The position numbers and the translations under genes are program-made. From Catalinimonas alkaloidigena (GTDB lineage: Bacteria; Bacteroidota; Bacteroidia; Cytophagales; Cyclobacteriaceae), in the NCBI RefSeq assembly GCF_029504655.1, contig NZ_JAQFIL010000003.1:89650-153649 (forward strand): a stretch of 64,000 bases of DNA, read 5' to 3'. This document shows, one piece after another, positions 37,017 through 57,635 of this stretch (positions are counted from its first letter, which is position 1; each line of letters begins with the position of its first letter). Below the pieces are notes generated by a model. That model did no database searches, had not been told where the DNA came from, and saw only the letters and a list, made by a program, of their open reading frames with translations.

Positions 37017-37877
37017 ATGGATCAGATACTCTCTCAGGTAGCTTTAAGATTGGAGCAAATGAACTATAGCCCAAGTACAAAGAAGACCTATGTAGGTATG
37101 CTAAGGCTATTTCTGGGACACTTTCCAAGCCAGGACTTAAGAAGCTTGGAAGAAGAGCAGATCAGAGCATTTTTGGTAGAAGCCTGCCAGGGCAAATCCC
37201 TTTCCTATCAGAACCAGCTCATCAATTCCATCAAGTATTTCTACGAGCAAATCCTAAAACGTCCCCGGACCTATTATCAGATAGATCGTCCTAGAAAAGA
37301 ATACCGCTTACCGGTGGTCTTATCCAAACAAGAAGTTATAGCGATCCTAATGCGGGTGAAAAATAGAAAACATCATGCAATTCTCTCCACTATTTATGCC
37401 TCTGGCTTAAGAATCTCAGAAGTGATAAGACTTAAAATCAAGGATATAGACTCCAAACGGATGGTTTTAGTAGTAAGCCAAGGCAAAGGTAAAAAGGACC
37501 GTCAGGTACCGCTTTCCAAGCATCTCCTGCAAGAACTTCGTTCCTACTATCTGGAGTACCAACCCAAAGCTTATCTTTTTGAGGGAGAAAAAGGGGGAGC
37601 CTACAGTAAAAGTAGCATCCAGCAGATTTTCAGAAGGGCCAAAAGAGGAGCAGGTATACACAAGAAAGCCACCGTGCATACACTACGTCACAGCTATGCA
37701 ACGCATCTGTTAGAGTCTGGCACCGATTTAAGAATGATCCAGGTGCTTCTAGGCCACAACAGCGTCAAAACGACAGAAATTTATACACACGTAAGTCATA
37801 GATACATTCAGTCGGTGGTGAGCCCCTTTGATACCCTATCTTGTGAAGCAAAAAAGGAAAACCTATATTGTAAATAA
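37017..37877 (+). CDS. Tyrosine recombinase of the cassette array (integron-integrase-like)
   Basis: A 286-residue recombinase from the ATG at 37017 (MDQILSQVALRLEQ); a GTG at 36999 would add six residues. The SAM-like core-binding domain is at 15-85. The catalytic residues are visible: Arg in ASGLRISEV, Lys in QGKGKKDRQ, His-x-x-Arg in HTLRHSYATHL, His in LLGHNSVKTT and Tyr in EIYTHV. The end SPFDTL resembles SPLDAL of IntI1. The roughly 20-residue insertion that marks IntI integrases before the HxxR box appears absent: only about 35 residues separate VPLSKHLL from the RRAKRGAG helix. The stop is 28 bases from the first cassette, and transcription runs towards the array. Confidence 0.9.
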   Translation: MDQILSQVALRLEQMNYSPSTKKTYVGMLRLFLGHFPSQDLRSLEEEQIRAFLVEACQGKSLSYQNQLINSIKYFYEQILKRPRTYYQIDRPRKEYRLPVVLSKQEVIAILMRVKNRKHHAILSTIYASGLRISEVIRLKIKDIDSKRMVLVVSQGKGKKDRQVPLSKHLLQELRSYYLEYQPKAYLFEGEKGGAYSKSSIQQIFRRAKRGAGIHKKATVHTLRHSYATHLLESGTDLRMIQVLLGHNSVKTTEIYTHVSHRYIQSVVSPFDTLSCEAKKENLYCK

Positions 37878-37917
37878 ACACAACTCCGCTGTGTTTATTC
37901 GGATGTTACCCAGCATG
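37873..37917 (+). other. Putative attI-like insertion site
   Basis: The recombinase stop overlaps an inverted repeat (AATAAACAC 37873-37881 and GTGTTTATT 37891-37899). Then CGGATG/TTACCCAGC follows, with the crossover point between G37905 and T37906 where cassette 1 begins. In integrons new cassettes enter at attI next to the integrase, and this is the corresponding position. The hairpin could be the recombinase-binding structure or a weak terminator. Confidence 0.65.
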
Positions 37918-37924
37918 TAAATAG

Positions 37925-38275
37925 ATGAAAAAAGAGAAGAGCTTAAATCTGGTAGTAGAATTTCTGAATAAAGAGATCAAAAGGCTAGATGAAGAAATCA
38001 AAGTTGAAGAAGGAAACTCTGCCGATAAAATAGACTTAAAATCTCAGATGATTGCTGCGATTAAAAATCTGGACTTTTGCTCGGAACATGGATTAAATGC
38101 TGCTCAAATAGAAGTAATTAAAATTCCTGAAGACGGCAGTGATTCTTATTTTACAGAGTATGTCATGGTAGATGAGCAGGAATTAAATAATATTTCTGAA
38201 TGGGCAGTAGCGAGAAATGGGGGGAAAGAAATTCGGTTGAATTGCTTTGACTTGATAATCAGAAAAAAGGATTGA
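37925..38275 (+). CDS. Cassette 1 (37906-38405): unknown 116-aa protein
   Basis: A soluble protein with a charged N-terminal helix (LVVEFLNKEIKRLDEEIKVE) and a C-terminal alpha/beta part. I know no family. The start codon is 19 bases into the cassette, typical for integron cassettes. It is the first cassette after the recombinase and so probably the most recently acquired and the best expressed. Confidence 0.75.
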   Translation: MKKEKSLNLVVEFLNKEIKRLDEEIKVEEGNSADKIDLKSQMIAAIKNLDFCSEHGLNAAQIEVIKIPEDGSDSYFTEYVMVDEQELNNISEWAVARNGGKEIRLNCFDLIIRKKD

Positions 38276-38280
38276 ACACG

Positions 38281-38411
38281 CTGGGTAACAAAAGCTATCT
38301 GTCAGGCTGCGGAATCCTGTACTTGAAAGTTAGCTTCACCAAGCACCATTTTTGCGAAATAAAAGATATAATCAAACAAGCGCAGCCCGTCAGCTAGCGG
38401 GCTCGTTGTAA
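38281..38411 (+). repeat. attC1, long type
   Basis: It begins CTGGGTAAC, complementary to the cassette 1 start TTACCCAGC, and ends at G38405/TT. Arms AGCTATCTGTCAGGCTGCG and GCAGCCCGTCAGCTAG pair with extrahelical bases; the apical part has CACCAAGCACCA, the long-type block. Confidence 0.88.
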
Positions 38412-38416
38412 AACAT

Positions 38417-38812
38417 ATGAAAAAAGAATACTTCATATTTGTTTTTCTGATTTTTGGATTTACATGTGCTGACCAATCTTGTAATCTGAAAGACGGAAAA
38501 TATAAAGTAGTTTACGATAAGCAATTTTCAGGTTATGCGGAATCAGAATTTGTAATTATAGATCAAACTTTGATTGAATTAAAGAATAACCAAAAATCTG
38601 AATACAAGATTAATTGGATTGCGGAAGACCAATTTCGACTAGACCCGATTAATAAGGAAACAGATTCTTTGACAAGCATTCAAGAGGAATTGAACTCTTT
38701 GGGAGAGCCATATTATCAAATTACCGGATGCAAAGCTGGCGATATTATGTTTGAGTTTTACCGTAATCCACATATACTTATAAATTCTGGGAAACTAATT
38801 AGAAAAGATTAA
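38417..38812 (+). CDS. Cassette 2 (38406-38941): secreted protein, identical to cassette 17 gene
   Basis: A 131-residue protein with a signal peptide (MKKEYFIFVFLIFGFTCADQ) and a lipobox-like Cys at 17. The mature part is small and mostly beta (KYKVVYDKQFSGYAESEFVI). I know no family. The coding sequence appears identical to that at 47567-47962, so the cassette was duplicated. The start is 11 bases into the cassette. Confidence 0.8.
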   Translation: MKKEYFIFVFLIFGFTCADQSCNLKDGKYKVVYDKQFSGYAESEFVIIDQTLIELKNNQKSEYKINWIAEDQFRLDPINKETDSLTSIQEELNSLGEPYYQITGCKAGDIMFEFYRNPHILINSGKLIRKD

Positions 38813-38816
38813 ATAC

Positions 38817-38947
38817 GTTTTACAACATTATGCATCGGTCAGCCCTATTTGAAACGCACCTGGGAGTTTATTGCTCCAAGCACCATTTTGATATTCGAAC
38901 AGAAAACGCAAACAACGCCAGGCCGTCCGCTGCATCGATCGTTAGCA
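38817..38947 (+). repeat. attC2, long type
   Basis: GTTTTACAAC pairs with the cassette start TTGTAAAAC; crossover at G38941. The apical block reads TTGCTCCAAGCACC. It is almost the same as the intron-split attC17. Confidence 0.9.
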
Positions 38948-38959
38948 GGCACTTAAAAA

Positions 38960-39473: not shown

Positions 39474-39605
39474 GCCTGCTAACAGTATGCAGCGCCCAGC
39501 CCTGTTAAATAGCGATTGAAAGTCGATCGCCCTAAGCACTATTTTTGCAACTTGAAAGAAAAACGCAAACAAGACCAGGGCCGTGCTCTGCATCGGTCGT
39601 TAGGG
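39474..39605 (+). repeat. attC3, long type
   Basis: GCCTGCTAAC pairs with the cassette start TTAGCAGGC; crossover at G39599. Apical block CCCTAAGCACTA and AAAACGCAAACAAG. Confidence 0.88.
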
Positions 39606-39616
39606 GCTACCTGAAA

Positions 39617-40339
39617 ATGAATATGATTAGAAACTTATTAATCCTATCAATTAGCATTTTAAGTCTTTTTGCGTGCGATGCAGAAGAAAGTAAATTAAGC
39701 AGAAATGTTTTTCTTACTCATTCTATATCTGATAAGTATAACAAGATAAGCCAATACAATAAACAGATGCCAGAAAAGGCAAAATGGGCTTTTCAACTAG
39801 CTAAAAAAATTAAAGGTGTATCAGATACCTGCTATATGATGTTGCCTAATTATAAGACAAACCAGATTATCGACTACATAAAGCAGCATGAAAAGACTTT
39901 TCCGACAATAATAAGAAATACATTAAAAACTGCTACGGATGCTTATCACCAATCCAATTCTAAATTAGATGCAGAGAAAATACAAATTGTTGAAAATGAA
40001 ATTCTGTCTCAACTTATAGATTTTGCATTTTCAGCAGATCTGAGATTTGATACATTTTCGTTAGTGCCTATAGCAAAATCAGATGAAATAAAAGATGGAG
40101 AAACTTATGTGGCAGATGTATTTTTTTCAGCAAGTAACTCAAGCTTTCCAACAAAGATTATTATAAATGAGGAATACTGGAAAGATACATTGACCTTTGA
40201 TCAATCATCTTTCCCTCATGTAAAAATTGATAAAAACAGATATCAAAAAGGGATGAATACGATAACACCAAAATATGTTGTTGAAACAATAGATGGAAAA
40301 GAGGAATATGAGTTTGAAATTAATTTTGAAGTAAAATAG
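39617..40339 (+). CDS. Cassette 4 (39600-40403): lipoprotein
   Basis: A 240-residue protein from the ATG at 39617, with a lipoprotein signal (MNMIRNLLILSISILSLFAC). An upstream in-frame codon would start inside the previous attC and is rejected. The N-terminal half is helical; the C-terminal half (KDGETYVADVFF and later) has a beta-sandwich look, ending VVETIDGKEEYEFEINFEV. The shape resembles gliding-motility accessory lipoproteins, but no family is certain. Confidence 0.8.
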   Translation: MNMIRNLLILSISILSLFACDAEESKLSRNVFLTHSISDKYNKISQYNKQMPEKAKWAFQLAKKIKGVSDTCYMMLPNYKTNQIIDYIKQHEKTFPTIIRNTLKTATDAYHQSNSKLDAEKIQIVENEILSQLIDFAFSADLRFDTFSLVPIAKSDEIKDGETYVADVFFSASNSSFPTKIIINEEYWKDTLTFDQSSFPHVKIDKNRYQKGMNTITPKYVVETIDGKEEYEFEINFEVK

Positions 40340-40342
40340 GCA

Positions 40343-40409
40343 GCCCCTAACACTGTTCAGGCCAGACCCTTGCTTCGCTGCGGGCCATGCCTGCACTGGA
40401 CCGTTAGGG
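40343..40409 (+). repeat. attC4, short type
   Basis: GCCCCTAAC pairs with TTAGGGGC of the cassette start; crossover at G40403. The compact palindrome is about 67 bp with the CTTGCTTCGCTGC apex. Confidence 0.9.
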
Positions 40410-40422
40410 GCAAGGCAAAGAA

Positions 40423-40875
40423 ATGAATTGGATTTACAAACCTGATACAGGAATACAGTTAGATGAAAACGAAAAGATAAGGATCAGATTTGGTGATTCA
40501 AGGGAAGAGTTACGTTCAAGACTGAATTATCAAAAGCCAAGAATAACCAGATTTGAAAATGAAGATAGCTATGAAAATATATTGGGTTCTGGAGATTGGA
40601 TCAGGCTCAGTTTTCAAGAAAATCAGTTAGATGAGATTGAAATTTTAATTGGCAAAATCACAATAGGTAAAATATCAATAGCGGTAGATGAGGATTTGGA
40701 TTTATCTCTAGCCAAATTTAGAGATGAAGGATTCGGAATAAAAGAAGGGGATATGAGCTATGTGATACCAGAATTAAAATTGGATATTGGTGACAGTGGT
40801 AAAAACGGAGGGGAAGACAATAAAATATGTTGGCTTTTTATGACGAGAGATGTAGAATATTTAATGAATGAATAG
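40423..40875 (+). CDS. Cassette 5 (40404-40939): unknown 150-aa soluble protein
   Basis: No signal peptide. An N-terminal LDENEKIRIRFGDSREELRS and a central SGDWIRLSFQENQLDEIEIL give a beta-rich small protein like some immunity or regulatory proteins. I know no family. The start is 19 bases into the cassette. Confidence 0.75.
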   Translation: MNWIYKPDTGIQLDENEKIRIRFGDSREELRSRLNYQKPRITRFENEDSYENILGSGDWIRLSFQENQLDEIEILIGKITIGKISIAVDEDLDLSLAKFRDEGFGIKEGDMSYVIPELKLDIGDSGKNGGEDNKICWLFMTRDVEYLMNE

Positions 40876-40878
40876 CCA

Positions 40879-40945
40879 GCCCCTAACACTGTTCAGGCCA
40901 GAGCCTTGCTTCGCTGCAGCCCATGCCTGCACTGGGTCGTTAGGT
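40879..40945 (+). repeat. attC5, short type
   Basis: GCCCCTAAC pairs with the cassette start TTAGGGGC; crossover at G40939. Nearly identical in sequence to attC4, so cassettes 4 and 5 have closely related attC sites although their genes differ. Confidence 0.9.
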
Positions 40946-40977
40946 GCCAAATGAAAATGAAAGATTACTGATAATTG

Positions 40978-41403
40978 ATGGAATTTATACCTGAGATTCT
41001 ATATACGGTAATAGCTATCCTAATTGCTTACTTTATTGTCAGACGATTGACTGATAAGGAAGATAAGAATTTCAACTCTAAATTCTTTAAATACTTGATA
41101 GTCTTATTCATGGGGGCAATAGGATTTGAATTGATAATCCGTTGGACAACTTCCAAACCTGAGATAGTCACGCAAACAATTGAACAATTACAAGCAAATC
41201 CAGAGATAAGAAGAACGATTGGGACTTATGAAGGCTTTGGATACAATAAAAATGAAATCGAGGAAATTAAAGAATTACCGGCTAGGATAGCTTTTACATT
41301 GTACGGGAGTGAGGCCGAGATAAATTTATCAGTGTTGATTGACTCTTCTGCCAATGTATTTGAGATTAAAGATTATAAGATTGATAGTTTGATAAAAAAA
41401 TGA
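40978..41403 (+). CDS. Cassette 6 (40940-41533): small membrane protein
   Basis: A 141-residue protein with two membrane helices (about 5-22 and 38-58) and a soluble C-terminal domain containing RRTIGTYEGFGYNKNEIEEI. The start at 40978 (ATG) is preferred over a TTG three bases earlier. No family is known to me. Confidence 0.75.
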   Translation: MEFIPEILYTVIAILIAYFIVRRLTDKEDKNFNSKFFKYLIVLFMGAIGFELIIRWTTSKPEIVTQTIEQLQANPEIRRTIGTYEGFGYNKNEIEEIKELPARIAFTLYGSEAEINLSVLIDSSANVFEIKDYKIDSLIKK

Positions 41404-41407
41404 ATTC

Positions 41408-41539
41408 GGCACCTAACAAAAAGCAGCTGCTACGCCTCTTGATGATGAGCCTGTAAGCTTGTTGCACCAAGTGCCAAAATAGAAACACGAAAGAAAAACG
41501 CAAACAAACCGGCTCAGCAGCTCGCTCAGGCCGTTGTGG
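41408..41539 (+). repeat. attC6, long type
   Basis: GGCACCTAAC pairs with the cassette start TTAGGTGCC; crossover at G41533. Apical TTGCACCAAGTGCC and AAAACGCAAACAAACCGG. Confidence 0.88.
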
Positions 41540-41547
41540 CTAATATT

Positions 41548-42102
41548 ATGAAGACAGCAATCCAGATATTAATAGTATTGATATTTTTGAGTTCCTGTGT
41601 GCAGCAAGAAAGGCAATATGAACAAGAAATACATAGAGTTGACAATAATCAATCTGAATCAACTCTGACAGAAAAAGTTGACGAACAAATAATTGAAAAG
41701 AAATTTGGTGAAGAGTTGTTTAAATCCATTTTGGACACCGTAACAATTAACGGAGTATCAGTTGACTTTCTAATTAATAATCAATGGGTTTACAGACCAT
41801 TTGACAACTGTGAATCATTTTTGAAATTTCAAGAAAATGGAAAAGGAGTCAGTTATAACTGTGAGATTGAAGAAGACTATGAAATGACTTATCAGATTGA
41901 AGGGAATAAAGTATTCATTTCAGAATATGATATTCCACACGTTGACAATGAAGAAAACAAAAAGATTAAATACAGAGACGATACTTATGTTTACAATGGG
42001 CAATCCCTCATAATGGTGGACTCGAGAATGTATAATATTAACGGACTCGATTGGACACCAAAAATTAAAGTTGTAATTGCCTTTGAAAGAAAGAAATACT
42101 AG
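41548..42102 (+). CDS. Cassette 7 (41534-42225): lipoprotein
   Basis: A 184-residue protein with a lipoprotein signal (MKTAIQILIVLIFLSSC). The start is the ATG at 41548; a GTG at 41536 would spoil the signal. The mature part has an acidic linker and a small beta domain (NNQWVYRPFDNCESFLKFQE). The WVYRPFDNCESFLKFQENGKG style is like lipocalin-type lipid-binding lipoproteins. Function unknown. Confidence 0.8.
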   Translation: MKTAIQILIVLIFLSSCVQQERQYEQEIHRVDNNQSESTLTEKVDEQIIEKKFGEELFKSILDTVTINGVSVDFLINNQWVYRPFDNCESFLKFQENGKGVSYNCEIEEDYEMTYQIEGNKVFISEYDIPHVDNEENKKIKYRDDTYVYNGQSLIMVDSRMYNINGLDWTPKIKVVIAFERKKY

Positions 42103-42231
42103 CCACAACATTATGTATCGGCCAACCCTCTTTGAAAAGTAATCGGAAATTTATTTCTCTAAGCACGAAAGTTGATAATTGAAAGTAAAACACCCAACAA
42201 GCCGGGCCGTCCGCTACATTTGGCGTTGGCG
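42101..42231 (+). repeat. attC7, long type
   Basis: AGCCACAAC pairs with the cassette start TTGTGGCTA; crossover at G42225. It overlaps the gene stop by two bases. Apical block CTCTAAGCACGAAAGTTG. Confidence 0.88.
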
Positions 42232-42244
42232 ATAATATGAAAAG

Positions 42245-42733
42245 ATGAAAAACCTAATATTTTACCTTACTATTCTTTTGCTTACAAGCTCTTGTTCTGA
42301 CAGTCAGATTGTCATTATTGACGAGAAAGTTAGTAGCAATGAGAAGTTAAATGCGTTAGATTCTTCTGAAGTTTTTTCAGTTGCCAGATGGCATAAGGGC
42401 GATGCTCCACCAAAGTATGCAGAATTTAAAAACTCTGAATTGGTGATTGTCAAGACCAAAAATTATGAAAGTCAATTACAAGAAGAGAGGCACTCCCAAT
42501 TAAGTCAATTACTTAATGAAGCAGAAAATGGAAATGACATTTTGATGATTTTAAATGGGGTAGAAATATTAAAAGAACAATTACATTTGCTCAAACAATT
42601 GAAGCCGCAGGATTTGAATTCGGTAGAAAGATTGGAAAAAGGGGTTGCCGAAAGCATCTATGGTGATAACGCAAGAACCGAAAATGTACTGATCAATACG
42701 TATGATTTGAAAACTGATTGGATAGATGAATGA
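42245..42733 (+). CDS. Cassette 8 (42226-42863): lipoprotein
   Basis: A 162-residue lipoprotein with signal MKNLIFYLTILLLTSSC. The mature protein is helical in its second half (EERHSQLSQLLNEAENGNDI). No family known to me. A second ATG nine bases upstream is possible but lacks a better signal. Confidence 0.78.
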   Translation: MKNLIFYLTILLLTSSCSDSQIVIIDEKVSSNEKLNALDSSEVFSVARWHKGDAPPKYAEFKNSELVIVKTKNYESQLQEERHSQLSQLLNEAENGNDILMILNGVEILKEQLHLLKQLKPQDLNSVERLEKGVAESIYGDNARTENVLINTYDLKTDWIDE

Positions 42734-42739
42734 AGTACT

Positions 42740-42869
42740 ACCGCCAACAAAAATCAGCTGCTATGCCTCTGAATTTGAGTCTAAAAGCTATTTGCTCCAA
42801 GAAGCTAAAATGAAAAACGAAAGTGAAACGCCAACAACCCGGCCCAGCAGCTAGCTTCGGTCGTTATGC
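42740..42869 (+). repeat. attC8, long type
   Basis: ACCGCCAAC pairs with the cassette start TTGGCG; crossover at G42863. Apical TTGCTCCAAGAAGC and GAAACGCCAACAACCCGG. The complementarity is only 6 bases, the shortest among the well-matched cassettes. Confidence 0.85.
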
Positions 42870-42915
42870 CCAATGTAAATTGAAAAGAAAAGTGCAAAAG
42901 AGCTATCTTTGAGGT

Positions 42916-43743
42916 ATGGATAGCAAAGAAAAATATATCAACCCATTCACTGATTTTGGGTTCAAGAAGCTGTTTGGAACGGATTTCAACAAAGAGCTAC
43001 TAATCGACTTCTTAAATAATGTACTTGGCGACAGAGAACGTATTCAGGATTTAACTTATTTGAACACAGAACATTTAGGCAATGCAGAAACAGATCGGAA
43101 AGCGATTTTTGATTTGTACTGTGAGAATGAGAAAGGGGAGAAGTTTATCATAGAGTTGCAAAATGTCAAGCAGCAATATTTCAAAGATAGGAGCATTTTC
43201 TATTCAACTTTTCCGATACAAAGTCAAGCACCAAAAGGTAGGGAATGGGATTATTATTTGAAAGCCGTTTATACCATTGGTATCCTGAATTTTAGTTTTC
43301 CAGATCAGAACGAGCAAGAACGTTTTTTAAGAGAAGTTCAGCTAATTGATAAAGAGACCAAAGAAGTCTTTTACCATAAGTTGACGTTCATTTATCTGGA
43401 AATGCCAAAATTTAGGAAAAGTGAAGATGAATTGATCAGTCAATTTGACAAATGGATGTACGTGATAAAGAACCTGCATCGTTTACAAGACAAACCCGTT
43501 AAATTACAGGAGAAGGTGTTTGAAAAACTCTTTTCCGAAGCAGAAATAGCGAAACTTAATTCAGAAGATATGAAAGCATACGAAGAAAGCTTAAAAACCT
43601 ACAGAGACAACTATAGCATCATTGAGACTGCCAAGAGTGATACCAGAATTGAGATTGCCAAACGTTTAAAAAATAAAGGTATCGACTTTGAAACAATTGC
43701 TGAAACTACGGGACTATCAAAGGAAGAGATAGAAAAATTGTAA
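42916..43743 (+). CDS. Cassette 9 (42864-43811): Rpn-family PD-(D/E)XK nuclease
   Basis: A 275-residue protein of the Rpn/PDDEXK_2 family. The start INPFTDFGFKKLFG is the family signature. The nuclease residues fit AIFDLYCENEKGEKFIIELQ: Asp, then Glu-x-Gln after the strand. A conserved YYLKAVYTIGILNF follows, and a C-terminal helix-turn-helix-like AKRLKNKGIDFETIAETTGL ends it. Rpn proteins are DNA nucleases promoting recombination; some are linked to phage defence. This is the largest native cassette apart from cassette 21. Confidence 0.92.
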   Translation: MDSKEKYINPFTDFGFKKLFGTDFNKELLIDFLNNVLGDRERIQDLTYLNTEHLGNAETDRKAIFDLYCENEKGEKFIIELQNVKQQYFKDRSIFYSTFPIQSQAPKGREWDYYLKAVYTIGILNFSFPDQNEQERFLREVQLIDKETKEVFYHKLTFIYLEMPKFRKSEDELISQFDKWMYVIKNLHRLQDKPVKLQEKVFEKLFSEAEIAKLNSEDMKAYEESLKTYRDNYSIIETAKSDTRIEIAKRLKNKGIDFETIAETTGLSKEEIEKL

Positions 43744-43748
43744 ACACA

Positions 43749-43817
43749 GGGCATAACATTGCATATCCGCAACGCTTCGGCCAGTGGCCTTGCCAGCGGC
43801 TATGCTTGGCGTTATAC
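43749..43817 (+). repeat. attC9, short type
   Basis: GGGCATAAC pairs with the cassette start TTATGCCC; crossover at G43811. Arms GCATATCCGC and GCGGCTATGC. Confidence 0.9.
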
Positions 43818-43826
43818 CCAATTTAA

Positions 43827-44288
43827 ATGAGAAATGCGATCATACTTGATCTGGATGGAGTCTTGATCACGACACCGAAATGGAAAGCGGATGCAATACA
43901 TGCTGATGGATATTCAGATTTTAATCGGCATGCAGTAGATAACCTCAATTTGTTATTAAAAGATATCTCGGCTGAATTATGGTTAAGTTCAAGCCGAAGA
44001 ATAGGAAAAACGATGGATGAATTTAGGACCATATTTCATAATCGGGGAATAGAGAGTAACTTGATTGGATTTCTGCCAGGCGATGAACTAGGAATACAAA
44101 GGAAGATTGAGGTAACTAATTTCTTGGAAAATGAATCGTTCATAAACTTCTTGATCATTGATGATGATGCTTCCCTGCATGGATTGGAATTAGAAAAAAA
44201 GAAGTACTGGATAAGAACAGATCCCCATCTGGGATTTGATTCCAACAAATTAGATGAGGCGAAGGAAAAGATAAAAAACTGGGTATAA
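43827..44288 (+). CDS. Cassette 10 (43812-44404): HAD-fold phosphatase-like protein
   Basis: A 153-residue HAD-superfamily protein without a cap. Motif I is ILDLDGVLIT, motif II LWLSSSRR, and motif IV FLIIDDDASLHGL. This short form resembles the HAD domains associated with RNA-repair (Swiss Army Knife) proteins. The stop codon lies inside the attC start (GGGTATAAC): the last codons and the recombination site overlap. Confidence 0.85.
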   Translation: MRNAIILDLDGVLITTPKWKADAIHADGYSDFNRHAVDNLNLLLKDISAELWLSSSRRIGKTMDEFRTIFHNRGIESNLIGFLPGDELGIQRKIEVTNFLENESFINFLIIDDDASLHGLELEKKKYWIRTDPHLGFDSNKLDEAKEKIKNWV

Positions 44289-44410
44289 CACTGCTCAGCC
44301 CTCACCCTAGCAATATAAATGCTAGAACATTAGTCGCTCTAAGTAGCGAAAATGATAAATGAAAGTAAAACAGCCAACAAGCCGGGCGACGGCTGCGCTT
44401 ATCGTTAGGC
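44281..44410 (+). repeat. attC10, long type
   Basis: GGGTATAAC pairs with the cassette start TTATACCC; crossover at G44404. Apical CGCTCTAAGTAGCG and AAAACAGCCAACAAGCCGGG. Confidence 0.9.
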
Positions 44411-50132: not shown

Positions 50133-50146
50133 CGCGCCACGGTGGC
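50133..50146. repeat. 14-bp palindromic insertion (copy 1) in the intron RT gene
   Basis: On the plus strand: CGC followed by the 11-bp palindrome GCCACGGTGGC (50136-50146). Deleting these 14 bases restores EKSGIRRP. The edges can shift by two bases because of repeats. Confidence 0.55.
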
Positions 50147-50731: not shown

Positions 50732-50746
50732 CGCGGCTGCCGCCCC
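50732..50746. repeat. 14-bp palindromic insertion (copy 2) in the intron RT gene
   Basis: The 11-bp palindrome GCGGCTGCCGC (50733-50743) plus CCC. Deleting 14 bases restores QAIRAVEIPK. It has the same build as copy 1 (5-bp arm, 1 base, 5-bp arm, 3-base tail) with a different sequence. The exact edges are ambiguous by one base. Confidence 0.55.
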
Positions 50747-51496
50747 TCTGATAGCTTGCGGTACATACGTCCTGTTCAGGATAGATGTCACCGTGGATAC
50801 ACGGTGGTAATCCAGGTATGAGCGTAGCTGATCTACCTTCATGTCATCTACTCCTGGTGCCCCTTTATTACCTACCACTTTGCGGTAGGCTCTGTACAGG
50901 TTTTTCGGTTGTAGTACTTTTTCTATCATCTTTTGTTCTGTCCTTGTCCGCTTAAGGGAAAGCTATCTCGTCTTAAGACGACATTCTGACCCGAATTTGG
51001 ACGCAATTCAATGTTCGGTCCTTCGCTGTTCTGTGAGACCTCAGGGGTATGGTATTCGCAATCCCTGCTCGTTCCTCCAGCTACTATGACCTCTGTCGGC
51101 AGCCGACGCTGTGACTTCTCAGATATCTGTTAATATCTGAGACCTCCCTCGGTAAGGTAAATACCCCGCGCCGCGTCGGCTTGTGCCTATTCCTGCTACA
51201 TCTACTATTTCGGTGCTGGCCTCTTTCGAGGAGTTGGACTTCGGTATCATGTGCTACCTCATCCGACCTCATAGCCTCGGTATGTAGTTTCTGTTCGTCA
51301 GTACAGACACCGCAGTCTGGCCGCTCGGCGGTCCGATTACTTCAGTTCCAGAGTCACCTCTGACAACCTTGCCGCTTGCTTAGCTTGGGGTAACGACTCC
51401 CCCGCCTACGGGACTATTTCCTGGTGAACATTACACCAGAACTTTCACCCTTTGGGACATCCTTTTAAAGAACTATATTTACCATTCAAGGCACAC

Positions 51497-51619
51497 ACAT
51501 TATGCATCGGTCAGCCCTATTTGAAACGCACCTGGGAGTTTATTGCTCCAAGCACCATTTTTGATATTCGAACAGAAAACGCAAACAAATCGGCCCGGAT
51601 GGTGCATCGGTCGTTATCC
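51497..51619 (+). repeat. attC17, 3' part
   Basis: It continues the split attC with ACATTATGCATCGGTCAG and the block TTGCTCCAAGCACC, nearly the same as attC2, and ends at G51613/TT. Together with 47967-47974 it gives a full long-type attC. Confidence 0.9.
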
Positions 51620-51637
51620 TCAATTACTGAACTGAAT

Positions 51638-52447
51638 ATGAACAGAATTCTACCTTTTTTAATACTACTAATCTTTACAACGGGATGCTCGTTTTTGAAC
51701 TCCTCTTCTGAAGGATACGACAATGCAGTAAGTCAAGTAAATGCAATTGCGAATGGAGATTTTGACGAAGCTATCTCCTATTTTGATATTGACTTATCCG
51801 ATACGGCTCAAGTCAACCAACTTAAAAGAGGAATTCCGAATATTCAGACAGCAATAACTGAAAATTTCGGAACTGATTTTGACCTGTCTTTTTCTAAGTC
51901 AGATAAAAAGTTCTCGTTTTCAACAGCTGACGATGAAGAATCTGTAATCGAACCTTTAAAGGTTAAGATTCAAATTAAAAATGATACACATTTCGGCATT
52001 ATTGAGGCCACTATTAACGAGCAGAACAACAAAATTCAGTACATCAACTTATTGAATTACAAGGAAGAAATTCCTTCTTATCTTTTGCTATATCTAGCTG
52101 GATTAATTGCTCTTGGCGTTGCTACTTTAAATATAATGGCGATTAGGCGTATCCGGAAAAGCAAATTGAAAAGGAAATGGTTACGAATAATTGGAGTATT
52201 AGTATTTAACGTCCCAACAATAACGTTGACAGCCCTTGGGCATTTTAGCCTCGATATTTCATTTCAGATATTATTGGGAATTGGTTTTAGTGCAACTGGA
52301 ATCGAAGAGACTCTAGTAACTTTTGGAATTCCGATTGGATCGATCATAACACTTATAATGGTGAAAACAGGAGAACAAAAGAGGATAACAGACGATAAGC
52401 TCAATGAGCAAACGGAGCTTTCAGCAAATGTCAGTGAAGTAAATTAA
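51638..52447 (+). CDS. Cassette 18 (51614-52494): lipoprotein with C-terminal membrane helices
   Basis: A 269-residue protein starting at ATG 51638 with a lipoprotein signal (MNRILPFLILLIFTTGCSFL). The mature domain to about residue 145 is soluble (DFDEAISYFDIDLSDTAQVN); then three hydrophobic helices follow (about 147-168, 188-208, 216-245). The C-terminal 20 codons overlap the attC, which begins at GAGGATAAC (52381). Cargo running into its own recombination site is unusual. No family known. Confidence 0.8.
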   Translation: MNRILPFLILLIFTTGCSFLNSSSEGYDNAVSQVNAIANGDFDEAISYFDIDLSDTAQVNQLKRGIPNIQTAITENFGTDFDLSFSKSDKKFSFSTADDEESVIEPLKVKIQIKNDTHFGIIEATINEQNNKIQYINLLNYKEEIPSYLLLYLAGLIALGVATLNIMAIRRIRKSKLKRKWLRIIGVLVFNVPTITLTALGHFSLDISFQILLGIGFSATGIEETLVTFGIPIGSIITLIMVKTGEQKRITDDKLNEQTELSANVSEVN

Positions 52448-52500
52448 CTTTAAATAAATTAAAAAGGGTATGCTCACATGAGCTTATCTGATCGTTGGCA
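52381..52500 (+). repeat. attC18, overlapping the end of the cassette gene
   Basis: GAGGATAAC pairs with the cassette start TTATCCTC; crossover at G52494. Arms GATAAGCTCAATGAGC and GCTCACATGAGCTTATC pair well. The gene stop lies at 52447, inside the palindrome. Confidence 0.82.
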
Positions 52501-52532
52501 GAGATAGAAAATAGAAAAACTTAGTTCTTGAA

Positions 52533-53027
52533 ATGGAGATAGAAAAGCTGATAAAGTCAATCATGAAAGACTCAGATTGCTTTGTGAGGCAACCAAATTT
52601 TGGTATTCGAACACCCAATCAGATTCCTGATGATCTTAAGCAATTTTATGATTTGACTGATGGTATTTTGTTATTTGGAAACGAGTTTTACTCAATTGAA
52701 ATAATTGGAAGAGAAGAATTCATTCCTATAAATGAAGTCTTTTTTTCAGTAGATGAAAGGAGCGATATAGATGATATAAGCAACAACTGGTTCTTAATCG
52801 GAAAAGAAGATAATTTAGGTCAATATATAAGCATTGACTTATCAGAAGGAAAAAGGGGCCAATGTTATGATAGTTTTCATGAAACACATGGATTAGTTGG
52901 AAATTCGCCAATAATAGCAAAGAGCTTTTCTGATTTGTTAAGATTGCTTTATCAAAATAAGGGACAGTACTGGTATTGGTTAGAGGAGGGATTTGAAAAA
53001 CTAGGAGATGCTTATGATGAAAATTAA
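52533..53027 (+). CDS. Cassette 19 (52495-53097): SMI1/KNR4 (SUKH)-like protein
   Basis: A 164-residue protein with IPDDLKQFYDLTDGILLFGN, the core SUKH helix-turn, and NNWFLIGKEDNLGQYISIDL, the usual strand pair. A late FSDLLRLLYQNKGQYWYW is typical. It is a second SUKH immunity-type cassette, not closely similar to cassette 16. Confidence 0.85.
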   Translation: MEIEKLIKSIMKDSDCFVRQPNFGIRTPNQIPDDLKQFYDLTDGILLFGNEFYSIEIIGREEFIPINEVFFSVDERSDIDDISNNWFLIGKEDNLGQYISIDLSEGKRGQCYDSFHETHGLVGNSPIIAKSFSDLLRLLYQNKGQYWYWLEEGFEKLGDAYDEN

Positions 53028-53042
53028 ATTAAGATTGTATAC

Positions 53043-53103
53043 CTCTGCCAACAATTAAGGATTCGTGTGGCCGGAACGGCCCAACATGAATCCTATGTTG
53101 ACT
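53043..53103 (+). repeat. attC19, short type
   Basis: CTCTGCCAAC pairs with the cassette start TTGGCAGAG; crossover at G53097. Arms AGGATTCGTGTGGCC and GGCCCAACATGAATCCT form a tight stem. Confidence 0.92.
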
Positions 53104-53313
53104 GAACCTGCTCGAGGATGTTATTATGGGGATTAGGTAGGGTTTGCGAGGAGTGTATTGAGAAGGTAGTAAACCTCCTTTTTTGTTTCCGAGTTAGTGG
53201 AGCGCCATCTCTATCGGCCAAACTAGAAAATCGACTATCCAAAGTCAGGAAAAAGCAGCACTTTATACCGGATAGGGCATAGCTCTCCCATTACGCCCTA
53301 GAATGGAGTTTTT

Positions 53314-54440
53314 TTACTGACTGCTCTTCTGGTTTGCGATCCGTTCCAGCCATATTTTTGGAGGCGCTCTGCCATAGAACATGCTCACCGTTTGCAGTGT
53401 ACCGTTGCCACAGGCACAGCACTTACGGTGAGATACCAATTCCTTCTGATCATCAGGAGCAACGCTTAGACCAAGCATCTGCTGGAGACTAGATAGCTTT
53501 TCAGGTTTCCAACTACTGGATAGGAAGCCGTAGTGCCTGATTCTCACAAAGCCTCTGGGCAGGATATGCTGGCTGAACCTTCTGATGAACTCTTTGTCAG
53601 TAAGGCTCATCTGCATTTTCTGCGCTCCTTTCCGGTAGTCCTTATAGCTGAAAGTAACCTGGCCGTTATCCAGGCCGATAAGTCTATGATTGCTAATGGC
53701 GATCTTATGAGTGTAGCGCCCCAGATATTCTACCACGGCTTTAGGATGTTGGAAAGGGCGCTTAGCATACACCACCCACTCTTTTTTAAATAAATTGGCA
53801 AAGAAGGTCTTTTCCTGCTTTGGAAACTCTCTTCTCAAGCCAGCCACGAACCTGGCCCGGAAGACCTTGCTCATAGCCTTCACTGGGAAAAGGAACTTAC
53901 CTTTATTCCGAGCAGGTTTCCATTTACCTTGCTTGGTCACGCCACCTCCAGGAACGATGCAATGTAAGTGCGGGTGAAGAGAGAGGTTCTGGCCCCAGGT
54001 GTGGAGTACAGCAATCATAGCTGGCTTGGCCCCCAGGTGCTTGGCATCTTTGGCAAAGCTTTGCATCACTGACCAGGCTGTACTGAACAGCAAAGCATAT
54101 ACCTTGGCAGGAGCATACAGACACAGAGGATTGACCTGTTCAGGCAGGGTAAAGACCAGATGGAAGTAAGGCACAGGCAGAAGCTCGGATTCTCTAGCCT
54201 GTATCCATGCTTCTCTCTGTTCCCCCTGGCATTTAGGGCAATGCCTGTTTCTGCAACTGTTGTAGCTGATAGACAGATTGCCACAGCTATCGCACTGATC
54301 TATATGTCCTCCAAGATCAGCAGTCCTACATTTTCTTAGGGCATGCAGTGTGTCCTTACCTGCCAACTGTTACTACAGTAGCTACCGAGCCGATGCCTGT
54401 TCCTGTTCAGCACATCGGCTACTTCATGCCTGGGACGCAC
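53314..54440 (-). pseudogene. IS91-family HUH transposase, frameshifted near the N-terminus
   Basis: The main frame from 54366 has the N-terminal zinc finger (CRTADLGGHIDQCDSC and CRNRHCPKCQGEQREAW), the HUH motif HPHLHCIVPGGG, and the Tyr region YLGRYTHKIAISNHRL. The true start is probably the GTG at 54440 that overlaps the recombinase stop (RPRHEVADVLNRNRHRL). A shift near 54355 (ACACACTG where ACACTG would fit) separates it from the rest. It would catalyse rolling-circle transposition. The break may inactivate it. Confidence 0.85.
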
Positions 54441-55228
54441 TACTTATCCGGATAAAGCGTATCCATAGGACTGAATGGCTTTCGCCTTCCCATTTGAGAG
54501 ACGTGCAGGTATATCAATGTCGTCTCTATGTGTGCATGTCCCAGTAGTTCTTTGATGCTCAGGATGTCTAATCCGTCTTCAAGTAGGTGTGTGGCATAAG
54601 TATGCCGAAGCATATGGGTGGTGACTTCTTTTGCCAATCCAGCTTTTTTACGGGCATGGCTTACTACCCACCATATTCCTTTCTGGGAAAGGGGCATTTT
54701 CTGACCGTCTTCTTCTTTACCGTTGAAGAGCCACTGATGAGGATTCTCATTTTTGAGATAAATCTGCAGTCCTCTGGCCAGGTGCTTACTCAAAGGCAGG
54801 TAGCGATCCTTGCGCCCTTTCCCACGTCTGACATGTACTGCCAGCCGATCAAAGTCTACATCTTTGATATGGAGTCCACAAAGCTCAAAGCAGCGTAGCC
54901 CACAACTGTAAAGCATACCGATGATGAGCCGGTGGCGCATCAGGTTGGGTGCCAGTAGCAACCTTCGCATCTCCTCCTTACTCAGGATGACCGGTAAATC
55001 TTTAGGTTGTTCAATGGAAGGAAGTACAACACGCTTTTCTTTGAGACCTTCCATCCGGTAAACATACCTCAGGCCATAGACGGTATGCTTAAAAAAACTC
55101 TCAGATGGTGTTTTCTTCTGCTGTTTAAGGTAATGCAAATAGTCTAACACTTGTTCTTCATCCAGCAGAACTGGATTAGTGTTGTAATACTGGGCCATCT
55201 GGGCCAGACAACGCGAGTAATTTGTCAA
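54440..55228 (-). CDS. Tyrosine recombinase of the IS91-like element
   Basis: A 262-residue visible frame from a TTG at 55228. Catalytic residues: Arg in SCGLRCFEL, Lys in RGKGRKDRY, HMLRHTYATHL, LLGHAHIETT and LIYLHV. Homologous sequence (FLPFYQKLERSLSVAGYSQS) continues upstream in frame to about 55305 without an ATG, so the 5' end is damaged or uses a rare start. It ends FSPMDTL, like the array recombinase (SPFDTL), and shares with it the absence of the IntI insertion. Confidence 0.85.
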   Translation of the reverse strand: MTNYSRCLAQMAQYYNTNPVLLDEEQVLDYLHYLKQQKKTPSESFFKHTVYGLRYVYRMEGLKEKRVVLPSIEQPKDLPVILSKEEMRRLLLAPNLMRHRLIIGMLYSCGLRCFELCGLHIKDVDFDRLAVHVRRGKGRKDRYLPLSKHLARGLQIYLKNENPHQWLFNGKEEDGQKMPLSQKGIWWVVSHARKKAGLAKEVTTHMLRHTYATHLLEDGLDILSIKELLGHAHIETTLIYLHVSQMGRRKPFSPMDTLYPDK

Positions 55229-55364
55229 TGTACTCTGGCTGTAGCCAGCAACTGAGAGACTTCTTTCTAGTTTCTGATAGAATGGGAGAAAATCAGGAAC
55301 CTCACGGCATGTTCAATTCCATTGCGGCTTTCTACAAGGGTTTCACCCTTGGCGCGATGTGTTT

Positions 55365-55422
55365 TTTTTCATGATATAAATGGTTTAAATTACCTTCATC
55401 AAGATAAGAATATCATGAAAAA
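55365..55422. repeat. 13-bp inverted repeat near the IS91-like element end
   Basis: TTTTTCATGATAT (55365-55377) and ATATCATGAAAAA (55410-55422) are perfect complements, 32 bases apart. It could belong to the element's terminus or be a transcription terminator. Confidence 0.5.
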
Positions 55423-55452
55423 CCCTGCTGCTAAAGGCTACCGTAGGTTTAG

Positions 55453-55581
55453 TTCAACAAATTGCAGTAGCTAGCCCTGTCTGAAAAGCATTCGGAAGCT
55501 AATTGCTCCAAGCACGAAAATTGATAGTTTGAAAAATAAACGCCAACAAGACGGGCCAGCTACTCGCACCGGCCGTTAGGT
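55453..55581 (+). repeat. attC20, long type
   Basis: It starts TTCAACAAATTGCAGTAGC and ends at G55575/TT. The apical block is TTGCTCCAAGCACGAAAATTG and AAACGCCAACAAG. The bases before AAC match the cassette 20 start poorly, the only bad fit in the array. Confidence 0.82.
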
Positions 55582-55589
55582 CTTATTTA

Positions 55590-56486
55590 ATGAAGGTATT
55601 AAAATACATACTGTTTTTTATAACAACTACAGCCTCTGGTCAGGATAGATTTCCCTTTGTAATGGATACTATAAAAGCAAATGGTGTAATAAGTTCTCAC
55701 CAAATGCTTGAAGGAGGTTTTGAGTTGATAGGTTTTTCAACTGACAACAAAATTTTTGATCTAAGCAAGTTAGATGATCTCTATAACCTGCATCTTCATA
55801 AATATATTTTGCTTAGAGAAAGTATAAAAAAATCAGAAGAGGGGTATATGGAAATTGAAGAATCAGAATTTGAAATTCCACCGAGTGAGCAACCACCTCC
55901 ACCACCTCCAATTACTGATCCCACAAAAGATTTTGAGTTAGGCCAGTCTCTTCAGGTAAAAGTAGATACCTCTCAGATTGTTGCTATGCCAGAATATATT
56001 GATAATTCTGAAGTCAGGCTCAATGTGTATGATGGTAGTATTAGGGAAATTTATGAATCTGAAATTAGTTTCCTAAGTAAATATTATAAGCAAACAAGTG
56101 ATAAGTATGAGGCATATCCGCTGCAAGTAATCAATCTCACAGATTCTATAGTGGAGATTGAAACAAAAGAGGGATGGATTTATATGATTCAGGAGGCTAT
56201 CGACAGTCTTGGTAACTGGAAACCCATCGAATATATTGACTACAGAGCAATTTGTGGGAATAGTTATTCTCAAAAGTCGTTGTTACCTGATGAATATCTA
56301 ATTTCAATGATATATAAATACAGTGGTAGTTATGCCACTAAACTGAGAGTGAAATTTGCCACTAACAAAAGCATCTATTACTCAAATGAGTTTGATGGAA
56401 AAATAAACTATAGTCAGTTTGAAGTACCTGATTTTATAAGATATGAGGGTCATGAAACTCAAAATGATCGGTTTTTGAAAAATTAA
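55590..56486 (+). CDS. Cassette 21 (55576-56555): secreted 298-aa protein
   Basis: A 298-residue protein with a signal peptide (MKVLKYILFFITTTASGQ). A proline-rich stretch (PPSEQPPPPPPITDP) at about residue 100 separates two parts. The C-terminal part has YEAYPLQVINLTDSIVEIET and ends in a beta-rich region. No family known to me. It is the largest native cassette. The start is 14 bases into it. Confidence 0.8.
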   Translation: MKVLKYILFFITTTASGQDRFPFVMDTIKANGVISSHQMLEGGFELIGFSTDNKIFDLSKLDDLYNLHLHKYILLRESIKKSEEGYMEIEESEFEIPPSEQPPPPPPITDPTKDFELGQSLQVKVDTSQIVAMPEYIDNSEVRLNVYDGSIREIYESEISFLSKYYKQTSDKYEAYPLQVINLTDSIVEIETKEGWIYMIQEAIDSLGNWKPIEYIDYRAICGNSYSQKSLLPDEYLISMIYKYSGSYATKLRVKFATNKSIYYSNEFDGKINYSQFEVPDFIRYEGHETQNDRFLKN

Positions 56487-56490
56487 GAAC

Positions 56491-56561
56491 AAGACCTAAC
56501 AAAGGCATAGCCGCTAAGCTTTGGCCGATGGCCTTGCCAGCGGCTATGCTCGGCGTTGGTG
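56491..56561 (+). repeat. attC21, short type
   Basis: AAGACCTAAC pairs with the cassette start TTAGGTCTT; crossover at G56555. Arms CATAGCCGCTAAGC and CAGCGGCTATG. Confidence 0.92.
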
Positions 56562-56627
56562 GTGATCAAAAAAACTCAGACAAGGAATGTGGTATTTCGT
56601 ATATTGTGATAGAAAAATATAAGACTC

Positions 56628-56807
56628 ATGAAGAAGACACAATTATTAGAAACCATTCAAGATATGCCGGAAGAATTTTCTGTAGATGAATTAATGGAAA
56701 GATTGATGATTTTACAGAAAATAGAAGAAGGCCAACAGCAAATACAGGCAGGACAATTCTACACAGAGGAAGAAGCTAAAAAGAAATTGGAAAAATGGTT
56801 AAAGTAA
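56628..56807 (+). CDS. Cassette 22 (56556-57157): antitoxin
   Basis: A 59-residue acidic protein (MKKTQLLETIQDMPEEFSVD, ending EEEAKKKLEKWLK). It overlaps the ParE-like gene by 13 bases, the usual antitoxin-before-toxin order. This type (PEEFSVDELMERL) is common as an antitoxin of Bacteroidota RelE/ParE toxins. It should bind and neutralise the toxin and repress the operon. The cassette leader is 72 bases, long enough for its own promoter. Confidence 0.88.
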   Translation: MKKTQLLETIQDMPEEFSVDELMERLMILQKIEEGQQQIQAGQFYTEEEAKKKLEKWLK

Positions 56808-57085
56808 TATGGGCAGAACGAGCCATAGATGATTTGACTAGTATAGCAGAATACAGTAGCAGATATTCGGAAAAATACGCTTCCTCTATTGTCTCCAAAC
56901 TCTTCAACAAAGTAAATATCTTGAAGAAAATGCCTAAGATTGGTAGGATAGTGCCTGAAAAGAATGATGAAAATGTCAGGGAATTGATAGAGGGCAATTA
57001 CAGAATCATCTATGAGATCAGAGGAGAAGAGAGGATAGAAGTACTAATGGTGCATCATTCGTCCAGACCGTTAGAAAATGTTTGA
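56795..57085 (+). CDS. Cassette 22: RelE/ParE-family toxin
   Basis: A 96-residue toxin with WAERAIDDLTSIAEYSSRYS at the start, MPKIGRIVPE in the middle and NYRIIYEIRGEERIEVLMVH near the end, the ParE/RelE pattern. ParE toxins poison gyrase, RelE toxins cut mRNA; the subgroup cannot be told. In integrons such modules stabilise the array against cassette loss. Confidence 0.93.
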   Translation: MVKVIWAERAIDDLTSIAEYSSRYSEKYASSIVSKLFNKVNILKKMPKIGRIVPEKNDENVRELIEGNYRIIYEIRGEERIEVLMVHHSSRPLENV

Positions 57086-57096
57086 GTAAAAAATGA

Positions 57097-57163
57097 CCAC
57101 CACCAACAAAATGCAAGCCCGACCTCGCTTCGCTGCGACCAGGGCCTGCCCATAACGTTGGTG
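57097..57163 (+). repeat. attC22, short type
   Basis: CCACCACCAAC pairs with the cassette start TTGGTGGTG; crossover at G57157. Apex CTCGCTTCGCTGCGACC. Confidence 0.9.
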
Positions 57164-57177
57164 GCTAGCATAAGAAA

Positions 57178-57564
57178 ATGAAAAGTAAAAAATTGATAGG
57201 ATACATATTAATTTTGATTGGATTGATTTTCTGCATTAGAACAATCCAATACGGATACGAATATGTCTCTTGGCAGGTAATAAGTCAGTATGGAACAACT
57301 TTGAATGCAAAAGTTATAGCTACAAATTGTGAAGATTCTGGAATAGTAAAATTTGAATTATTAGAAGTGGGAAAAATTATATTCCAAGAGGTAGAAAGTG
57401 ATTGTGGGATATTCAGTGTTGGAGAAGAGTATTCATTTCTGCATCATGAATTTTATCCCAATAAATACTTATTCATAAATGAGACACGGTCACCTATAGC
57501 CGGAGCCATTGCAATATTGATTTCAATACTTTTTGTTTTACCAGGAATATTAATGTTAAAGTAA
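57178..57564 (+). CDS. Cassette 23 (57158-57629): small membrane protein
   Basis: A 128-residue protein with an N-terminal helix (KKLIGYILILIGLIFCI) and a C-terminal helix (AGAIAILISILFVLPGILML) around a beta-rich loop. The layout resembles DUF3592-type proteins. It is the last complete cassette. Confidence 0.75.
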   Translation: MKSKKLIGYILILIGLIFCIRTIQYGYEYVSWQVISQYGTTLNAKVIATNCEDSGIVKFELLEVGKIIFQEVESDCGIFSVGEEYSFLHHEFYPNKYLFINETRSPIAGAIAILISILFVLPGILMLK

Positions 57565-57568
57565 AGCC

Positions 57569-57635
57569 AGCCACCAACAGCTCAGCGTGCATGCTTCGGC
57601 TAAAGCCTTCGCCGTCCGCTGCGCAACCGTTGGCA
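57569..57635 (+). repeat. attC23, short type, last of the array
   Basis: AGCCACCAAC pairs with the cassette start TTGGTGGCT; crossover at G57629/TTGGCAG. No matching CTGCCAAC occurs downstream, so anything after it is a truncated cassette or foreign DNA. Confidence 0.9.

Follow-up and report, generated by a model that had tools for sequence, protein, structure and literature searches.

Can gene cassettes be captured and shuffled by a recombinase that lacks the insertion I2, specific to the integron integrases (IntI)? Acquisition of I2 has been described as the step that paved the way to cassette capture (PMC7790495; papers given by PMC number are cited from excerpts of their text), and the question is raised by a locus of Catalinimonas alkaloidigena in which a tyrosine recombinase gene is followed by a long tandem array of cassettes. 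The window that we analyzed is a stretch of 64,000 nucleotides (nt), bases 89650-153649 of contig C3 (153,649 bp), from a genome of 7.92 Mb in three contigs. From comparison of sequences we consider it highly probable that the locus is an I2-less, integron-like platform of 22 cassettes, with an adjoining recombinase that is predicted to capture and shuffle these by recombining folded bottom-strand attC-like sites with an attI-like palindrome. That the array works like an integron is well supported by these comparisons; the label "canonical integron" fails, because I2, the extrahelical bases and the direction of the gene are not as in IntI systems. The locus has the following order:

37017..37877, + strand: I2-less integron-type tyrosine recombinase of 286 aa, assigned from TIGR02249, structure 2a3v and the catalytic residues; a GTG start at 36999 is also possible
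37873..37907, + strand: attI-like site, palindrome AATAAACACA/TGTGTTTATT, then CGGATG|TT (the bar marks the crossover point); the left arm overlaps the recombinase stop codon
37906..57629, + strand: array of 22 cassettes, each with a + strand open reading frame (ORF) and, at its end, an imperfect palindrome of the form ...AAC ... G|TT

An initial annotation, made from the letters of the window, had described a recombinase at one end of 23 cassettes separated by imperfect palindromes with AAC...G|TT ends. The array, its recombinase, the palindromes and the outer boundaries (37905/37906 and 57629) all stand, and the count is lowered to 22, because boundary 53097 lies inside an IS91-type element that interrupts the attC of a SUKH cassette; an insert-free form of that attC is found at another locus, L045. 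Two cassettes are interrupted in all, cassette 17 by a group II intron and an IS3 element, and cassette 19 by the IS91-type element, which has a tyrosine recombinase of its own. Cargo was also said to lie on one strand, which holds for the cassette ORFs (+) but not for the inserted IS91-type genes and the reverse transcriptase of the group II intron (-). As for the proposed "Bacteroidota chromosome", the phylum is borne out by 19 matches to type IX secretion system (T9SS) sorting domains in the genome compared with 0 in 14 control genomes, while "chromosome" goes further than the data: in a profile search of the genome's contigs, Rep_3 matches were found on C2 and C1 and none on C3.

The recombinase and its attI-like site

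Among the NCBIfam models listed for the recombinase, the best-fitting one is the integron integrase TIGR02249, with 221.6 bits against a cut-off of 265 and the match split in two stretches; the XerC and XerD models are below cut-off. The closest solved structure by sequence is VchIntIA (2a3v), where 62 chain residues stand against 19 in the query. Indeed, the recombinase is without I2: it has 58 rather than 100 residues between the box-I loop and HxLRH, and the insertion stretch is unmatched in TIGR02249. None of the TIGR02249 matches across the whole genome covers profile positions 188-227, which correspond to the insertion. The interval from the box-I loop to HxLRH is 58 residues long in 29/32 rows of the new clade (59, 59 and 63 in the others), 100 in 17/17 IntI, 59-62 in five IS91-linked recombinases and 65-66 in four Xer-type ones. 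The catalytic residues R132, K157, H221, R224, H247 and Y256, the R-K-H-R-H-Y set, are conserved in all 59 aligned rows.

In a tree of these 59 rows, the new clade (33 rows, support 95/97) and IntI (17 rows, 99/98) each form one side of a branch, and together they fall in a group that excludes the four Xer-type rows (100/99); the order among the new clade, IntI and the IS91-linked recombinases is not resolved, and four rows have long branches. By sequence, the clade thus lies close to the integron integrases yet outside them. The predicted fold (predicted local distance difference test, pLDDT, 83) is about as close to archaeal Xer as to VchIntIA, with archaeal Xer ranked at or above VchIntIA by VIA-align and Foldseek.

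Directly 3' of the recombinase gene lies the candidate attI site, the placement expected of attI. Similarity to L034, which has a 94% copy of the recombinase, extends to the GTT and ends there, and a palindrome ahead of the first G|TT recurs elsewhere, the best inverted repeat exceeding the shuffled 95% level in 21/36 regions.

Some relatives of the recombinase are longer (L045 6336-7760, L029 and L016) and carry N-terminal beta-beta-alpha repeats. HARP matches were found in two of three proteins, below the Pfam cut-off (E 8e-4 and 3e-3), and a model of this HARP-like domain was middling (pLDDT 70; predicted template modelling score, pTM, 0.38). HARP is a binder of DNA structure.

Cassette ends, predicted site folds and cassette exchange

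Each attC R'' (N7-AAC) is complementary to the start of its own cassette (GTT-N7) and not to that of the next. Over positions 4-10 in 22 of the 23 units first annotated (the intron-split unit was left out), with R'' placed at its best own match, 147/154 letters pair with the own start and 66/154 with the next one; shuffling gave a mean of 54.3 and a maximum of 94, with 0/100,000 shuffles as high as the own-start count, so that the palindromes are not a matter of chance. The count was repeated on 32 independent sites, which were located by a covariance model without being among the sites that built it, and in which the position of R'' was not chosen by match: an exact 10-nt own partner lies upstream in 18 of them, compared with 19/928 control pairings. 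Such own-end complementarity is the state to be expected if each cassette once was a circle.

As controls for the sites, we took 20 IntI-bearing stretches from the same phylum and treated them identically. The own arms of the new system have lengths of 7 (17 units), 8 (5), 9 (18), 10 (80) and 13 (2), with chains of at least three in 21/38 loci; for IntI they are 7 (4), 8 (6), 9 (8), 10 (10), 11 (17), 12 (9), 13 (4), 14 (3) and 15 (1), with such chains in 12/20. Matches of 7-9 are partly noise, because reversed sequence also yields many of them: 7 (28), 8 (8), 9 (10), 10 (2) and 11 (2) for the new system, and 7 (18), 8 (9), 9 (5) and 10 (2) for IntI.

Beyond the arm, position +11 is A in 122/122 units from 32 loci, compared with 10/54 in the IntI controls, and its partner is C in 94 of the 122. 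An A facing C is a mismatch on the top strand and a G.T wobble on the bottom strand. Within the window, +11 is A in 21/22 units; the one that departs from this has its start within the IS91-type element. The flanks are nearly constant as well, with A after AAC in 91/91 sites and C before G in 88/91. One-sided bulges in the 3' arm, where the bottom strand of IntI sites has its extrahelical bases, were predicted in 7/90 new sites as opposed to 33/38 IntI sites (Mann-Whitney p 9e-20; 2/41 IntI sites of ambiguous direction were dropped, and one IntI and one new site gave no clamped fold). The two sets share the 4-nt side of the spacer loop. The predicted fold is stabler on the bottom strand in 87/91 sites (mean -3.66 kcal/mol) and on the top strand in 3. 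By prediction, then, these sites have the layout of attC, with R''/R' (AAC/GTT), an inner stem, an unpaired spacer and bottom-strand folding.

For a covariance model, R1, we used 10 long sites from the window and the structure chosen by RNAalifold; an alignment of the short sites was too ragged for use. In a genome scan at E <=0.1, with 150 of 4672 first-look candidates scored, R1 found 37 sites, 33 of them in four recombinase loci (11, 7, 8 and 7) and all of these on the strand opposite to the recombinase. Leaving out the ten building sites, 23/27 are in the four loci; the matches elsewhere are four singletons of 22.8-49 bits. The initial annotation had named two outcomes that would speak against it, palindromes that do not fold as attC and a fixed gene order; the palindromes are predicted to fold, and the order is not fixed among the arrays of this genome.

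Elsewhere in the genome, other arrays hold whole cassettes that are 100% identical from end to end, namely cassette 1 (twice, in tandem, at L034) and cassettes 2+3 and 10 (at L036). On the left, the identity continues for 1 to 3 bases beyond the boundary and on the right for 2, and so ends at G|TT. The window's array has cassettes in common with each of the three other recombinase loci of the genome, and, in this comparison within one genome, gene order differs between arrays. Cassettes appear to have moved between these arrays as units, with junctions at G|TT. What comparison shows is the clade of the recombinase, its missing insertion and complete catalytic set, the signatures of the sites, and the exchange of cassettes at G|TT.

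We infer that the recombinase is the mover, that its substrate is a folded single strand and that one strand is chosen over the other. A plausible course would be as follows. In a free cassette circle, the cassette start and its own R'' would restore a 10-bp R helix. At its two limits, +11 and the spacer, this helix would have G.T wobbles on the bottom strand and A.C mismatches on the top strand, and the bottom strand would fold better because of this difference. The recombinase would read the GTT at the crossover and the A at +11, tolerating seven variable bases in between, and one strand would be exchanged with attI at G|TT, leaving the junction to replication. Candidates for blocking exchange of the second strand, in a system without I2 and extrahelical bases, are the asymmetric spacer loop and the +11 wobble.

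Spread, competing accounts and significance

A scan of named genomes gave at least 585 pattern matches, of which at least 502 were confirmed, and the best 80 of these at least 502 were used as loci. Downstream of the recombinase they hold 82 chained units in 268 kb; the corresponding figures are 4 in 694 kb of upstream sequence and 6 when the downstream sequence is reversed. In 33/80 loci, no more than 600 nt separate the recombinase match from a first cassette start, defined by an own partner of >=9 and A at +11. The contig ends within 1.5 kb of the recombinase on the downstream side in 41/80 loci and on the upstream side in 2/80, as if the arrays break assembly downstream of the recombinase. 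In the window and the other loci of the genome, the recombinase comes first and the array follows in the same direction. It points toward the cassettes in 15/22 scorable named loci as well, whereas 7/10 scorable IntI controls are divergent (10 of 15 controls could be scored, arrays with short chains being unsure). Among 295 genomes sampled from the class, we found the I2-less family in 130 and canonical IntI in 1 (family threshold E <=1e-60, no more than 7 or 8 candidates being scored in each genome, 33 members placed on the tree), while IntI is above cut-off in 105 of 395 genomes of the phylum, one of these listed in the same class. A reading of the locus as a lone oddity was ruled out by this recurrence in other loci and in 130/295 class genomes.

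The initial annotation had proposed a new integron class and a survey of Bacteroidota for the recombinase next to similar palindromes. The survey supports the proposal, as the pairing recurs in other Bacteroidota genomes with chained units downstream, and the missing I2, the +11 signature, the few extrahelical bases and the cassette exchange point the same way; the rarity in the phylum that it implied is contradicted by the 130/295 and 105/395 counts. On balance, we lean somewhat towards a broader claim, that this is a second integron design across the class Bacteroidia, which has almost no canonical integrons, and that it would capture folded single strands without I2 or extrahelical bases, using the A at +11 as its strand mark.

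With canonical integrons the system shares a tyrosine recombinase of a close clade, an adjoining attI-like site, tandem cassettes, a G|TT crossover, mutually complementary cassette ends (also found in the IntI controls), an unpaired spacer and a favored bottom strand. It differs in having no I2, few 3'-arm bulges, arms limited to 10 bp and followed by A at +11 (IntI arms mostly measure 9-15), and a recombinase directed at the cassettes, not away from them as in most of the scorable IntI controls. As to a cluster of attC sites without integrase (CALIN), a close-clade recombinase adjoins the array here, although by the insertion criterion it is no IntI. The Xer recombinases of dimer resolution are set apart by the tree and by their own models. 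An "integron-like" subgroup of simple tyrosine recombinases, in which the insertion is not fully conserved, has been described (PMC8138268); in the excerpted text, the insertion is called essential for integron function, and I2-less members are not tied to cassette arrays or to a type of site. Integration of CTX-phi by XerCD (PMC4792948, PMC7790495) likewise joins a hairpin without extrahelical bases to recombinases without I2, but there a phage borrows the host's XerCD and has no recombinase and cassettes of its own. Finally, the IS91-linked tyrosine recombinases belong to the same wider group and lack I2, and one sits within an attC here, but they adjoin an IS91 transposase in all five cases seen.

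Several observations weigh against our reading. A need for I2 in cassette capture reportedly goes back to Messier and Roy in 2001. The predicted structure of the recombinase is unsure at residues 249-259, which include the catalytic tyrosine. The same necessity of I2 is stated in PMC7790495. The choice of R'' by best own match favors the own-start count, and the own partner was missed in 14/32 independent sites. Chains of short matches also occur in reversed sequence, in 14/38 loci compared with 21. Site statistics come from units chosen for an arm match of >=9, the sites are related, and the folds are minimum-energy predictions; the C facing the +11 A is kept only in the 94 units given above, and bulges are not absent, with 7/90 sites having one in the 3' arm and 16 in the 5' arm. 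R1 generalizes poorly to the best 80 loci (9 matches, 8 of them in one locus), weakly matches IntI arrays (3 matches in 364 kb), and scores one singleton beyond the four loci at 49 bits. Chains of at least two units were found in 21/80 loci (21/32 by hand count where at least 2.4 kb lies downstream), and with laxer matching the best chain is 5' of the recombinase in 6/22 loci.

How else could the locus be explained? An ordinary integron may have lost I2 from its integrase and the extrahelical bases from its sites, leaving a functional but derived system. We regard this as possible but doubtful. The new clade and IntI do share a group without the Xer-type rows, their order relative to the IS91-linked recombinases is left open, and both site sets have the 4-nt side of the spacer loop. 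However, the IS91-linked and Xer-type relatives are also without the insertion, so that its absence is the commoner state; moreover, IntI forms one side of a branch, and its sites do not conserve the A at +11 (10/54). It is unlikely, in turn, that the recombinase is an ordinary double-strand Xer-like enzyme acting on GTT/AAC sites next to incidental hairpins. Seven variable bases that pair with the other end of their own cassette would be needless for double-strand recognition, and the bottom-strand bias is consistent, even though the enzyme is of Xer-like size, its structure resembles archaeal Xer about as much as VchIntIA, and the attI-like site is an inverted repeat.

Clusters of attC without integrase are common (PMC9668308) and R1 weakly matches IntI arrays, as would be the case if the array were a canonical attC cluster moved in trans by IntI with the recombinase as a bystander. 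This is very improbable, since no I2-bearing IntI was found in the genome and IntI is in 1/295 genomes of the class, most sites are without the bulges that IntI reads, and the sites are linked to the I2-less recombinase genome-wide; IntI in trans was rejected on the absence of a TIGR02249 match spanning I2 and on the class count. If tandem units had spread without a dedicated recombinase, through homologous recombination or transposition between repeats, this might account for the partial likeness of the long sites and the tandem duplicate of cassette 1 at L034. Yet on either side the identity of moved cassettes stops within 1-3 nt of G|TT and the two ends of each unit are complementary, and we hold this account to be the least credible of all.

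According to PMC4792948, I2 and the extrahelical bases coevolved and prevent a second exchange, and the same paper raises the question of how I2 or attC could arise first, in the absence of the other. A widespread, apparently recently active platform that has no I2 and, for the most part, no extrahelical bases makes this chicken-and-egg question of I2 or attC first testable; if the I2-less state is ancestral, cassette recombination would predate I2, which would answer it. The recombinase would probably escape integron finders, which are keyed to the IntI-specific domain (PMC9668308), and the pool of cassettes in a large bacterial class may therefore be undercounted. Among the titles and abstract starts listed by searches of the open-licence PMC literature, with subscription papers and preprints outside the search, none describes an I2-less integron or cassette platform.

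On two Acinetobacter plasmids (L134 and L136), a truncated relative of the recombinase lies directly before tet(X3), the L136 copy within the new clade; the recombinase ahead of tet(X3) has been called xerD (PMC9784759). Between the two genes are a palindrome and a CTTG|TT-N7-A start, similar to the attI-like site. We searched for an own-start partner of at least 8 letters after tet(X3) on the Acinetobacter plasmids and found none. A truncated clade member in this place may suggest one route by which Bacteroidota genes reach other bacteria.

Cargo and inserted elements

The cassettes and their inserts are listed below.

37906..38405, +: cassette 1; ORF 37925-38275; attC 38280-38405; own-arm 10; identical twice in tandem at L034
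38406..38941, +: cassette 2; ORF 38417-38812; attC 38817-38941; own-arm 10; 536/536 identical at L036
38942..39599, +: cassette 3; ORF 38960-39469; attC 39474-39599; own-arm 10; identical at L036, in tandem with cassette 2
39600..40403, +: cassette 4; ORF 39614-40339 (GldM-domain match below Pfam cut-off); attC 40342-40403; own-arm 10
40404..40939, +: cassette 5; ORF 40423-40875; attC 40878-40939; own-arm 9
40940..41533, +: cassette 6; ORF 40975-41403; attC 41408-41533; own-arm 10
41534..42225, +: cassette 7; ORF 41548-42102; attC 42100-42225; own-arm 10
42226..42863, +: cassette 8; ORF 42245-42733; attC 42739-42863; own-arm 7
42864..43811, +: cassette 9; ORF 42916-43743, PDDEXK_2 nuclease family (Pfam); attC 43748-43811; own-arm 9
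43812..44404, +: cassette 10; ORF 43827-44288, HAD_SAK_2 (Pfam); attC 44280-44404; 593/593 identical at L036
44405..44920, +: cassette 11; ORF 44430-44861; attC 44859-44920; own-arm 10; 97% over 469 nt at L045
44921..45354, +: cassette 12; ORF 44937-45281; attC 45291-45354; own-arm 10
45355..45811, +: cassette 13; ORF 45380-45736, DUF7668 (Pfam); attC 45750-45811; own-arm 10
45812..46342, +: cassette 14; ORF 45834-46214, Cys-rich CPCC (Pfam); attC 46218-46342; own-arm 10
46343..46967, +: cassette 15; ORF 46364-46840; attC 46845-46967; own-arm 10
46968..47555, +: cassette 16; ORF 46996-47481, SMI1/KNR4 (SUKH) (Pfam); attC 47492-47555; own-arm 10
47556..51613, +: cassette 17; repeats cassette 2, with identity over the first 420 nt; attC R'' broken after ..AA (47975), remainder 51498-51613
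47976..51497, -: insert in cassette 17; group II intron whose reverse transcriptase is fragmented, together with an IS3-family element (its ORFs within 48038-49329, +)
51614..52494, +: cassette 18; ORF 51638-52447; attC 52380-52494, overlapping the ORF end; own-arm 9
52495..55575, +: cassette 19; ORF 52533-53027, SUKH; attC split by the IS91-type element, right part 55459-55575
53053..55458 (ends uncertain by a few nt), -: insert in cassette 19; IS91-family transposase 53314-54366 and tyrosine recombinase 54440-55228
55576..56555, +: cassette 20; ORF 55590-56486; attC 56491-56555; own-arm 10
56556..57157, +: cassette 21; small ORF (by eye), then ORF 56795-57085; attC 57098-57157; own-arm 10
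57158..57629, +: cassette 22; ORF 57178-57564; attC 57569-57629; own-arm 10; array end

Ten cargo proteins were run through PADLOC, and 0/10 matched. Cassette 21 may be a toxin-antitoxin pair, ORF 56795-57085 being ParE-like by eye. Upstream of the array, at 31388-35886 of the window, a ribonucleotide-reductase-like ORF and two more ORFs were read by eye.

Group II introns that target attC are known from canonical integrons. The insert in cassette 17 was assigned from Rfam group-II-D1D4-3 (78.6 bits), TIGR04416 and transpos_IS3. In 3/3 copies seen (window 47976-51497, L036 10138-12068 and L034), the intron sits at exactly AA|C of an attC R''; its reverse transcriptase, in pieces in the window, is a single frame of 426 aa in the L036 copy. 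The IS91-type element of cassette 19 (NF033538, 433.7 bits), whose tyrosine recombinase is of the wider integron group, lies directly after the AAC of R'' in 2/2 copies, the other being a 99.3% copy in L034 that occupies the equivalent position of a different attC, and may aim at attC sites. Cassette 19 is 559/560 nt identical at L045, where its attC is unsplit. Lastly, three arrays from two genomes (L034, L036 and L038) have a common first element after attI, beginning GTTGATAGGCAATTC..., of about 600 bp by eye in L036 and L038.

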